A stretch of 64,000 nt of DNA from contig NZ_CP017774.1 of NCBI RefSeq assembly GCF_001857965.1, positions 2,480,001 through 2,544,000 on the forward strand, given 5' to 3'. This DNA comes from Flavobacterium commune (GTDB lineage Bacteria > Bacteroidota > Bacteroidia > Flavobacteriales > Flavobacteriaceae). Positions 44,008 to 49,838 of this stretch are shown in pieces. The notes under the pieces were generated by a model, which was not told where the DNA came from, did no database searches, and was given only the letters and a program-made list of their open reading frames with translations. A program made the translations under genes and the position numbers. The stretch's first letter is position 1. Each line of letters begins with the position of its first letter.

Positions 44008-44202
44008 TACATTTTCGAGTAATTGTCTTTGTCGTTTTTTAGGAATATTTCTAGCTTGTGACAATGTTAGCCTGAGGTGAATACAAATAGTAATTTAAAC
44101 AAAAATATTTTGATGCGTTTGGATAGGTTCAAAAAGAGCTAAGAATAAGTGATTTGTTTTAAGGTGTGGAAAAAATGTTCTATTTATGTTAAGCTGTTCT
44201 GG

Positions 44203-44262
44203 TAGTCAGCCGCGGAGGAGACTCGAACCTGTGTCTGCCGTGGCGGATATGAGCTTGACGAA
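44203..44262 (-). pseudogene. Degraded tRNA-Met fragment C
   Basis: The 3' half of the tRNA-Met found at 44946-45018 is recognisable (T arm ACTCGAACCTGTG on the plus strand, anticodon ATGAGC, GACGA of the anticodon/D region). The acceptor arm is altered and the variable arm is replaced by the palindrome-like TCTGCCGTGGCGGA (44234-44247). The 5' half is missing; the broken GIY-YIG gene abuts it. Confidence 0.65.
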
Positions 44263-44518
44263 TTATAAGTTTTTGATAATGTTTTTAATAAATTCTCGTC
44301 CTATTCCTGTTTTAAAATATTTTTCTCTTTTCATTGCCTCAGATTTAGAATTGAAAAATTCAATATGAATTATAATCCATGGTCTGTATTTGATGGTATG
44401 TCCTTTTGTTGCTAAATGATTGTGAGATTTGAAACGTTCAATAATGTTGGAAGTGTATCCAGTGTAGTGCTGATTAAATTTTCCAGAATTATAGAATTTA
44501 GACTACGAATTCATCCAT
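44263..44518 (-). pseudogene. Broken GIY-YIG nuclease gene copy
   Basis: This is nearly identical in sequence to the intact gene at 44633-44887 over its 3' two thirds. The reading frame starts MDEFVV and then meets a stop at codon 7; a one-base insertion within the next 40 nt shifts the frame. Length is 256 bp against 255 for the intact copy. It is therefore a decayed second copy in a unit repeated at about 370-bp offset. Confidence 0.8.
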
Positions 44519-44540
44519 ATAGATATTTTTTAAACAAAAA

Positions 44541-44567
44541 AAAACACCAGCTTTTCAGTGGTGTTTT
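44541..44567 (-). terminator. Terminator-like hairpin in the repeat unit
   Basis: AAAACACCA (44541-44549) pairs with TGGTGTTTT (44559-44567). It stands at the 3' side of tRNA fragment D, as the hairpin at 44913-44942 stands after the intact tRNA. Confidence 0.65.
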
Positions 44568-44572
44568 CTTAG

Positions 44573-44632
44573 TAGTCAGCCGCGGCGGAGACTCGAAGCT
44601 GTGTCCGCCGTGGCGGATATGAGCTTGACGAG
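44573..44632 (-). pseudogene. Degraded tRNA-Met fragment D
   Basis: The same structure as fragment C: altered acceptor arm, recognisable T arm, palindrome TCCGCCGTGGCGGA (44604-44617) in place of the variable arm, intact CAT anticodon region, and an end within GACGAG. The stop codon of the intact GIY-YIG gene begins at the next base. Confidence 0.65.
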
Positions 44633-44887
44633 TTATAAGTTTTTGATAATGTTTTTAATAAATTCTCGTCCTATTCCTGTTTTAAAATATTTTTCTCTTT
44701 TCATTGCCTCAGATTTAGAATTGAAAAATTCAATATGAATTATAATCCATGGTCTGTATTTGATGGTATGTCCTTTTGTTGCTAAATGATTGTGAGATTT
44801 GAAGCGGTCGATAACATTGGAAGTGTATCCAGTGTAGTGCTGATTGAAGTTTTCAGAAAACAGAATATAAACTACAAATTCATCCAT
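44633..44887 (-). CDS. Small single-domain GIY-YIG nuclease
   Basis: An 84-residue protein consisting of a GIY-YIG fold alone: the VVYILFS and HYTGYTSN segments correspond to the two name motifs, followed by the conserved Arg in DRFKSH and the catalytic-type Glu in SKSEAMKREKYFK. Such UPF0213-like proteins are a widespread family of uncertain role. Unusual here are its position, with the stop codon abutting a tRNA-Met fragment and the start facing an intact tRNA-Met gene, and the broken second copy 370 bp away. This suggests a small mobile cassette tied to tRNA sequence, which is an inference. Confidence 0.8.
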   Translation of the reverse strand: MDEFVVYILFSENFNQHYTGYTSNVIDRFKSHNHLATKGHTIKYRPWIIIHIEFFNSKSEAMKREKYFKTGIGREFIKNIIKNL

Positions 44888-44912
44888 ATGTTTTTATTGA
44901 TAAATATAAATA

Positions 44913-44942
44913 AAAAAGCCTCATATTTCTATGAAGCTTTTC
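44913..44942 (-). terminator. Terminator after tRNA-Met 1
   Basis: AAAGCCTCAT and ATGAAGCTTT form a stem that is fully paired (one G-U) only in the minus-strand transcript. It lies directly after the 3' end of the tRNA. Confidence 0.7.
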
Positions 44943-44945
44943 TAG

Positions 44946-45018
44946 TAGCGGGAACAGGACTCGAACCTGTGACCTTCGGGTTATGAGCCCGACGAGCTGC
45001 CTACTGCTCTATCCCGCG
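44946..45018 (-). tRNA. tRNA-fMet(CAT), copy 1
   Basis: A cloverleaf folds on the minus strand with D arm GAGC/GCTC (A11-T24 pair), anticodon CAT in loop CTCATAA, and three consecutive G-C pairs at the end of the anticodon stem (GGG/CCC). Together with an unpaired first acceptor position (C1 opposite T72), these are initiator hallmarks. The T arm is ACAGG/CCTGT. Encoded 3' bases are CTA rather than CCA, so CCA must be added after transcription. Confidence 0.93.
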
Positions 45019-45040
45019 ATGTATTTTCAATATATTTTTA

Positions 45041-45100
45041 GAACCTGTGTCCGCCTTGGCGGATATGAGCTCTTTGATTTGCCTACTGCTCTATCCCGCG
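45041..45100 (-). pseudogene. Degraded tRNA-Met fragment A
   Basis: It keeps the tRNA 5' part (acceptor strand and D arm up to AGGCA), the ATGAGC anticodon region and the start of the T arm. It lacks the 3' acceptor strand and has the TCCGCCTTGGCGGA element (45050-45063) instead of the variable arm. The D-arm 3' strand and the anticodon stem are lost, so it cannot fold as a tRNA. Confidence 0.7.
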
Positions 45101-45135
45101 ATGTGCGTTTTGTAATCTCAATAAGGCTATCTTAG

Positions 45136-45208
45136 TAGCGGGAACAGGACTCGAACCTGTGACCTTCGGGTTATGAGCCCGACGAGCTGCCTACTGCTCT
45201 ATCCCGCG
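45136..45208 (-). tRNA. tRNA-fMet(CAT), copy 2
   Basis: Identical over the whole cloverleaf to the gene at 44946-45018, with the same initiator features. It lies between the two fragments A and B. Confidence 0.93.
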
Positions 45209-45233
45209 ATATATTTTCAATTTGTCAATTTCT

Positions 45234-45293
45234 GAACCTGTGTCCGCCATGGCGGATATGAGCCATCTGATTTGGATAATGTTTTATCCCGCG
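45234..45293 (-). pseudogene. Degraded tRNA-Met fragment B
   Basis: The same architecture as fragment A but more decayed. The palindrome here is perfect, TCCGCCATGGCGGA (45243-45256). The acceptor 5' strand CGCGGGAT survives at 45286-45293, while the D arm is largely lost. Confidence 0.65.
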
Positions 45294-45383
45294 ATGTTTC
45301 GGGTGCAAATATACAAATAAATTCGACATATACAATGCCGAATTTTAAAAAATGTTTTATTTCGTCTATTGGCTTGATATGAC

Positions 45384-46304: not shown

Positions 46305-46320
46305 TCCCGAAGCTTCGGGA
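46305..46320. repeat. Palindrome TCCCGAAGCTTCGGGA
   Basis: A perfect 16-bp palindrome just after era, preceded by CAG as in the related TCCCGATAGCTATCGGGA elements. It may double as an era terminator, although no T run follows. Confidence 0.6.
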
Positions 46321-46462: not shown

Positions 46463-46480
46463 TCCCGATAGCTATCGGGA
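46463..46480. repeat. Palindrome TCCCGATAGCTATCGGGA
   Basis: A perfect 18-bp palindrome in the der leader, 22 bp before the start codon. It is a member of the same short-palindrome family as 27452-27472 and 49791-49812. Confidence 0.7.
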
Positions 46481-49763: not shown

Positions 49764-49838
49764 TAATAAAAAATTCCAAATTCTAATTTTATCCCGATAA
49801 CTATATCGGGATTGGAATTTGGAATTTAAAATTTGGAA
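49764..49838. repeat. Inverted repeat with central TATCGGGAT palindrome
   Basis: An AAATTCCAAATT-type arm and its complement (AATTTGGAATTT) flank ATCCCGATA ... TATCGGGAT (49791-49812). It stands between convergent CBM48 and thyA genes and belongs with the other ATCGGGA palindromes of this window. Confidence 0.65.

Follow-up and report, generated by a model that had tools for sequence, protein, structure and literature searches.

Small GIY-YIG nuclease genes beside tRNA genes in Flavobacterium commune and other Bacteroidota: a possible family of homing-like cassettes

Why do the initiator tRNA genes of Flavobacterium commune lie among broken copies of themselves, next to a gene for a very small nuclease? 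Genes for tRNAs are well-known docking sites for mobile DNA, and the elements known to dock there bring integrases. The locus lies in a 64,000-nt stretch of contig NZ_CP017774.1 (assembly GCF_001857965.1), referred to here as ‘the window’. Coordinates are positions in this window, and every tRNA and nuclease feature of the locus is on the minus strand.

ARAGORN called a pair of intact tRNA-Met(CAT) genes, at 44945–45018 and 45135–45208. Both have C1 opposite U72 and a GGG/CCC anticodon stem, which we take to be the hallmarks of initiator tRNAs. When one fMet gene was searched against the genome together with its flanking sequence, two full-length copies were found, both in the window. Around them lie four broken copies; the original prediction had counted two intact and four broken genes, and ARAGORN and the sequence confirm this. 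The two upstream copies are pseudo-tRNAs-fMet that keep the 5' acceptor strand: one at about 45036–45104, with no nuclease gene and with a palindrome (45050–45063) at the anticodon arm, the other at about 45229–45297, with a palindrome at 45243–45256. The two downstream copies begin in the D-loop region and run to the tRNA 3' end. The first (44572–44632) follows an intact, fMet-type GIY-YIG gene of 84 codons (44633–44887), and the stop codon of this gene directly adjoins it, just as had been claimed. In this copy a palindrome (44604–44617) replaces the 3' half of the anticodon arm, and a second, imperfect palindrome occupies the T-arm/acceptor part. The second (44202–44262) follows another GIY-YIG copy (44263–44511), which sequence comparison identifies as a pseudogene with a frameshift and a stop near its start. 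TCCGCCNNGGCGGA is present at the anticodon arm in three of the four broken copies, the one at 44202–44262 carrying a form with one mismatch; the ten bases 3' of CATA are ACCCGAAGGT in the intact tRNA and TCCGCCNNGGCGGA in the broken copies.

Two details of the original prediction need amending. The intact and broken tRNAs do not strictly alternate; in minus-strand order the locus reads broken, intact, broken, intact, GIY-YIG gene, broken, GIY-YIG pseudogene, broken. And the 370-bp unit of tRNA fragment, hairpin and nuclease gene, which is indeed present twice (a 287-bp repeat of 96% identity at 370-bp spacing), has only one nuclease gene intact; the frameshift rules out the other as a second intact gene. 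Two terminator-like hairpins were recognized by eye. One, with a T-run, separates the first tRNA from the GIY-YIG gene (44905–44943), and a nearly identical sequence, again by eye, lies 3' of the tRNA at an empty-site locus (L120). The other, of the CACCAC..GTGGTG type, lies between the partial tRNA copy and the pseudogene (44535–44571), and hairpins of this type also occur 5' of the nuclease gene at L030, L032–L034 and L040. No further ORF of at least 50 aa was found on the coding strand inside the unit, which thus has no integrase of its own.

The 84-aa protein matches Pfam PF01541 over residues 4–69 (E = 3.8e-16). GIY-YIG was the sole family that the Pfam search returned; neither a separate DNA-binding module nor a Y1 (HUH) transposase appeared. 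Y, Y-x-G, R, H, T, E and K are invariant across 17 diverse sequences, and we take these to match the catalytic residues of the domain, which is presumably present with its catalytic residues in place. Among solved structures, UPF0213 proteins and Slx1 (PDB 1zg2, 1ywl and 7wme) come nearest, with a sequence match over the domain (1zg2, E = 1.4e-16; Slx1 entries, E = 3.4e-6 to 6.8e-4); among NCBIfam models TIGR01453 alone was hit, under its cut-off. Median dN/dS (NG86) is 0.15 over 1116 same-isotype pairs that passed the saturation filter, 0.12 for the fMet type, and 0.14 when the 129 pairs of dS under 0.8 are taken alone. These ratios indicate purifying selection, so the ORF is being kept as a protein.

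With the window protein as query, matches occur in 67 of the 101 sampled genomes of the genus, frequently in tandem arrays with a spacing of about 350–390 bp. Among the matches listed, 92 genus loci were examined, 32 from the searches and 60 fetched, and 71 of these have a tRNA on the same strand within 900 nt, with a conserved junction between the nuclease gene and a fragment of the same tRNA. Homologues lying mainly away from tRNAs, with no conserved junction, had been named beforehand as the outcome that would speak against the original prediction; the outcome was the opposite. The 21 loci that lack such a tRNA comprise nine of a stand-alone clade (L108, L109 and L111–L117), which has no tRNA neighbour, and 12 that are array interiors, contig ends or unexplained. 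By subfamily, the isotypes in the genus are fMet, Val-TAC, Ala-GGC, Arg-TCG, Arg-TCT, Leu-CAA, Pro-TGG, Asn-GTT, Asp-GTC and Phe-GAA; fMet-type units are lacking in 85 of the 101 genomes. Beyond the genus, a 17-sequence profile matches 141 of 199 sampled genomes of the family and 192 of 296 of the phylum, counts in which some matches would be of the stand-alone kind and the genomes are phylogenetically non-independent. A same-strand tRNA lies within 900 nt at 52 of the 58 best-scoring loci of these profile searches. When named genomes were scanned using a Val-type alignment, the best 79 loci of 158 relatives were kept; they came from Flavobacterium, Pedobacter, Mucilaginibacter, Chitinophaga-named bins, Echinicola, Salegentibacter and others. 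These loci had a tRNA-Val(TAC) call on the same strand within 900 nt in 60 cases, no tRNA in 12 and no ORF call in one, Val types being over-represented as a result of the query. No opposite-strand tRNA lies within 300 nt of a mapped ORF in the genus, family/phylum or named-genome sets.

Two loci are recorded as observations in their own right. The first, L274 (CP034120.1), is a Bacteroidota-type unit filed under the name Glaciecola amylolytica, perhaps in error; its promoter looks to us Bacteroidota-like. Since the label is doubtful, transfer to Proteobacteria is not claimed. The second, L301 (G273:C34:6985-9772), from another genus, has eight fMet-type nuclease ORFs in one tandem array, with a TCCGCC hairpin 3' of each of the five ORFs within the locus, and no tRNA in the locus.

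How strictly are nuclease and isotype paired? Among 246 non-identical homologues of 72 aa or more, with distances taken from the start of the profile match, 131 have an intact same-strand tRNA within 75 nt upstream, and 16 end within −25 to +15 nt of an intact tRNA start (the ‘mirror’ form). For a further 44, mostly in arrays, such a tRNA lies no more than 900 nt upstream; the remaining 55, nine of them from the stand-alone clade, show none in the stretch examined. On the protein tree, 191 isotype labels in 15 states require 24 changes, against a mean of 93 and a minimum of 88 in 100 shuffles, so that protein clades hold largely to one isotype while the same design recurs at about a dozen tRNA types. 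Before this count, 24 ARAGORN calls beside ORFs (e.g. Lys(ttt), Stop and SeC) were discarded as pseudo-tRNAs on the basis of their palindrome or label. The tree of fMet-type proteins gives no clear sign of horizontal transfer, copies from one genome group together on it, and one Val-type query found no match in phage and plasmid collections.

Of 285 distinct ORFs, 195 lie downstream of a same-strand tRNA at a distance of 900 nt or less, and the partial copy was followed in these. A lenient score detects a copy of the T-arm side of that tRNA 3' of the stop codon in 172 of the 195, where some matches may be due to chance; a stricter score leaves 136. In many units the copied sequence contains the stop codon or adjoins it. 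A D-side match is present as well in 131 ORFs, with a perfect hairpin of at least 6 bp in between in 115 of them. Altogether 130 ORFs have such a hairpin before the T-arm copy, and the exact anticodon arm survives in that stretch in just two, Arg-TCG and Leu-CAA, whose palindromes are in other arms. For fMet units the hairpin count (3 of 20) is too low, as the alignment took in part of the palindrome. A consensus, T-[CT]-C-C-G-A..T-C-G-G-[GA]-A, is common to 116 of the 130 hairpins, the two arms changing in step, mainly at positions 2, 6 and 7. The hairpin is usually at the anticodon arm; its usual form is TCCCGA..TCGGGA, and TCCGCC..GGCGGA for fMet. Mirror-form units have a broken 5' part with its palindrome, then the ORF, then the intact tRNA, and the upstream partial copy beats 20 shuffles in 15 of 16 units; L205 and L172 give weak signals, and L262, a doubtful case, is probably a normal Val unit whose pseudo-tRNA was miscalled.

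Hairpin class follows the nuclease. It changes five times over 160 leaves of the protein tree, against a shuffled mean of 37, so that nuclease genes are flanked by a palindrome of their own class; 86 of the 246 homologues have no classifiable hairpin, and three Pro-type leaves (L097) were placed in the CCTGCC class by a loose pattern. Compared with different tails of the same isotype, the tail of the fragment is nearer to its own tRNA in 83 of 96 comparisons, farther in nine and tied in four, and when the 45 nt that follow the tRNA are compared with those that follow the fragment, the score is 0.70 for pairs from one locus and 0.49 for pairs from different loci. These similarities point to recent duplication or gene conversion.

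Occupied and empty alleles of one site, as expected of homing endonucleases, are present in two pairs, both of them comparisons between species. In the first (L039, occupied; L123, empty), homology runs through the tRNA and terminator, is broken by a 260-nt insertion containing the ORF, and resumes from tRNA position 21, with an 89-nt duplication. The second (L034, occupied; L138, empty) has a 308-nt insertion, comprising a terminator-like hairpin and the ORF, between the tRNA 3' end and a copy that starts from tRNA position 23; the duplication is 53 nt and the host terminator remains downstream. Part of the tRNA is thus duplicated at the ends of the unit in both pairs. Pseudo-tRNAs also occur alone, with no ORF, at L126, L133 and L144, and at L146 the start of the ORF is degraded; from their sequence, these four look like relics of the unit. 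In arrays, the intact tRNA usually occurs once or twice, and the multiplied part is the nuclease gene with the non-functional tRNA copy. Many fMet loci have two intact tRNAs, and duplicate intact fMet genes occur also where there is no nuclease.

The palindromes extend beyond the units. The fMet-type palindrome occurs 22 times in the 3.85-Mb F. commune genome, against none for a reversed-pattern control, a difference that, with the recurrence of the same anatomy in many genomes, rules out chance or artefact. The pattern TCCCGAN{0,8}TCGGGA occurs 69 times against two for its control. Three dispersed palindromes, listed without strand, lie in the window itself: TCCCGAAGCTTCGGGA (46305–46320), of the class of most non-fMet units, TCCCGATAGCTATCGGGA (46463–46480) and TCCCGATAACTATATCGGGA (49792–49811). 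Outside units, TCCGCCNNGGCGGA has a median of 2.5 copies (mean 5.0) in the 16 genus genomes with fMet-type ORFs and of 0 (mean 0.46) in the 85 others (P = 7.6e-8), where G051 was scored positive on a partial ORF and local palindromes were not excluded for the second G082 unit and for partial units in G042 and G090. Three or more such copies are present in eight of the 16 and in three of the 85; one of these three, G033, has relics at its fMet genes. Over the 296 phylum genomes, the TCCCGA palindrome has a median of 10.5 copies with the nuclease family and 3 without, counts that include each unit's own palindrome. Permutation within 17 mixed family/genus groups (174 genomes), which controls relatedness in part, gives P = 0.004; taken one genus at a time, the contrast is clear for g241 (P = 0.009) and weak for g236, one large genus (P = 0.22). 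Palindrome abundance was also tried as a predictor of the nuclease: a strong fMet-type match was found in six of 13 palindrome-rich genomes of the family (four of them new) and in none of 30 palindrome-free ones. We give this no weight, since the unit itself carries the palindrome, and so could scarcely turn up in a palindrome-free genome, and seven of the 13 rich genomes have no match.

Several individual occurrences deserve mention. Six dispersed repeats of F. commune (L006, L011, L015, L016, L018 and L019), roughly 180–200 bp long and 92–96% identical to the L011 copy, appear to form a long imperfect inverted repeat around TCCGCCGCGGCGGA and are MITE- or REPIN-like. At L012:1351-1970 (C1:1475605-1476224), two intact tRNA-Asn(GTT) genes lie among three solo pseudo-tRNA-Asn 3' ends that bear the fMet-type palindrome, and no nuclease gene was seen in this interval. 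The TCCGCC palindrome lies within a SAM riboswitch match at L010:1490-1595 and just 5' of the 16S rRNA gene at L005; at L007 and L008 its 45-nt flanks are identical. In another genome of the same family, one of the palindrome-rich ones, 20 of 25 listed TCCGCC-NNN-GGCGGA-like sites fall within 38 kb (G201:C1:73533-111376), perhaps an integron-like array.

How, then, might the locus be understood? Belief and doubt are about evenly balanced in our minds over the reading that we favour: that the F. commune unit is one of a Bacteroidota-wide family of isotype-specific, homing-like, free-standing GIY-YIG cassettes that dwell in tRNA genes. The nuclease would cut its cognate tRNA gene at or near the anticodon arm, and repair from a cassette-bearing chromosome or unit would copy the ORF and a tRNA segment into the gap. 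One intact tRNA would be left after repair, so that the host survives, and the hairpin-bearing copy would serve both as a resistant target and as a homology arm. As rounds of cutting went on and tRNA copies recombined, arrays and hairpin-converted spare copies could arise, and decay of the ORF could leave solo relics. The original prediction supposed an element of this kind, homing or repeat-spreading, with tRNA sequence as its target; the empty and occupied sites, relics and arrays fit it, and its cutting and movement we infer, as we do copying by repair, the protection that the swapped copy would enjoy and any part played by the nuclease in hairpin spread. Against a homing reading stand the intact tRNA beside the nuclease, a self-target unless protected, and also the want of any domain beyond GIY-YIG or of any phage or plasmid match to the one Val-type query, an fMet-type tree with no clear horizontal transfer, the weak palindrome association in g236, and the 55 of 246 homologues with no tRNA in view.

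Integrative elements that target tRNAs insert beside the tRNA, duplicate part of it and keep an intact tRNA. The cassettes are like them in all three respects and unlike them in having no integrase, the 84-aa ORF standing alone on the unit's coding strand. The closest worked example is SegB of phages T6/T4, described in the accessible text of its report as a free-standing GIY-YIG homing endonuclease that cuts tRNA-containing DNA and drives tandem tRNA–segB amplification (PMC13096335). Common to the two are a GIY-YIG nuclease beside tRNA genes, tandem amplification of the tRNA–nuclease unit, and microhomology between the tRNA 5' end and the nuclease gene 3' end (PMC13096335). SegB, however, is phage-borne and has no isotype preference, and neither a hairpin-swapped pseudo-tRNA nor a dispersed palindrome is found in that text (PMC13096335), whereas the cassettes are chromosomal and isotype-specific, belong to Bacteroidota, encode mostly 80–95 aa and have both of these features. 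The UPF0213/Slx1-like domains have no tRNA linkage in the accessible part of the 2006 superfamily survey (PMC1564403), and our stand-alone clade has none either.

In RAYT/REP systems, as in the cassettes, the nuclease gene goes with one class of palindrome, further copies of which are scattered over the genome; as far as the available text of the RAYT reports goes, RAYTs are tyrosine transposases (PMC2817692, PMC3116915), whereas the cassettes are GIY-YIG and anchored in tRNA copies. The original comparison with RAYT/REP has gained in support: hairpin class tracks nuclease clade, the fMet palindrome is enriched off-locus where the fMet nuclease is present, and dispersal of the same palindrome with the gene, weak in g236, was found. 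Much as REPs relate to RAYTs, the palindrome probably belongs to the sequence that a nuclease lineage recognises or to the trace that it leaves, and the best reading of our comparisons would make the family SegB-like in position and RAYT/REP-like in its tie to a palindrome. A bolder formulation, which we advance tentatively and with more doubt than belief, is that these are a new class of genome parasite: tRNA-dwelling, isotype-specialised GIY-YIG nucleases with a clade-specific palindrome, overwriting spare anticodon arms and seeding the genome, RAYT/REP-like with unrelated chemistry.

Could mobilising the palindrome be the whole of what the nuclease does? A RAYT-like GIY-YIG protein might recognise, nick and spread its clade's palindrome into hairpins (tRNA arms, the riboswitch, stem–loops), with tRNA genes favoured as hairpins and as travelling partners of the nuclease gene. 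We think this unlikely. The clade-tracking hairpins and the off-locus TCCGCC enrichment in fMet-type genomes agree with it, as do the pseudo-tRNA-Asn 3' ends and the six dispersed repeats, which have the TCCGCC palindrome at their centre; so does the TCCCGA difference (median 10.5 against 3, stratified P = 0.004), but that comparison counts each unit's own palindrome, and within g236 there is hardly any difference. GIY-YIG is, moreover, the only Pfam match, and to our knowledge no GIY-YIG enzyme moves REPs.

Two other roles strike us as improbable, and equally so. One is that the nuclease benefits its host, raising tRNA copy number by cut-induced tandem duplication in the manner of SegB (e.g. 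against anticodon nucleases), the pseudo-tRNAs being by-products or decoys. Tandem arrays, duplicate intact tRNAs at many fMet loci, the SegB precedent and purifying selection all suit such an amplifier; the arrays, however, multiply the nuclease and a non-functional copy while the intact tRNA is usually there once or twice, intact fMet genes are duplicated without a nuclease too, and most genomes of the genus sample (85 of 101) do without fMet-type units. The other is an ancient, vertically inherited and often lost gene of the tRNA operon that acts on RNA, either in tRNA processing or as an anticodon nuclease checked by the pseudo-tRNA. Insertions with target duplication and solo relics tell against this, and so do the nearest solved relatives, UPF0213 and Slx1, the latter named a structure-specific endonuclease; we know of no RNase with the GIY-YIG fold. 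Its merits are that it fits the isotype fidelity, the same-strand position within 75 nt of the tRNA, and the pseudo-tRNAs that still fold well enough for ARAGORN (the 24 discarded calls). Finally, the idea that tandem duplications arise around tRNAs without selection and simply carry the nuclease along matches the direct repeats of the arrays and the clustering of same-genome copies on the tree, and is already disfavoured, to the point of being barely credible, by a dN/dS of 0.15, recurrent clade-specific hairpins and the same design at about a dozen tRNA types.

Among the matches listed in the open-access literature, titles and the starts of abstracts mention neither chromosomal GIY-YIG genes at tRNAs in Bacteroidota nor hairpin-swapped tRNA copies, and the terms ‘bacteroid’, ‘flavobact’ and ‘cytophaga’ are absent from the accessible text of the 2006 superfamily survey (PMC1564403). 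On the evidence above, a very small nuclease gene appears, throughout a phylum, to keep to one tRNA isotype, clade by clade, and time and again the neighbouring tRNA copy has a hairpin in place of its anticodon arm. Dispersed palindromes and tRNA pseudogenes of these genomes may have arisen in this way, and the family may be a chromosomal counterpart to phage SegB. The cassettes may also be a compact model in which to test how so small a nuclease locates a tRNA gene while sparing its host.
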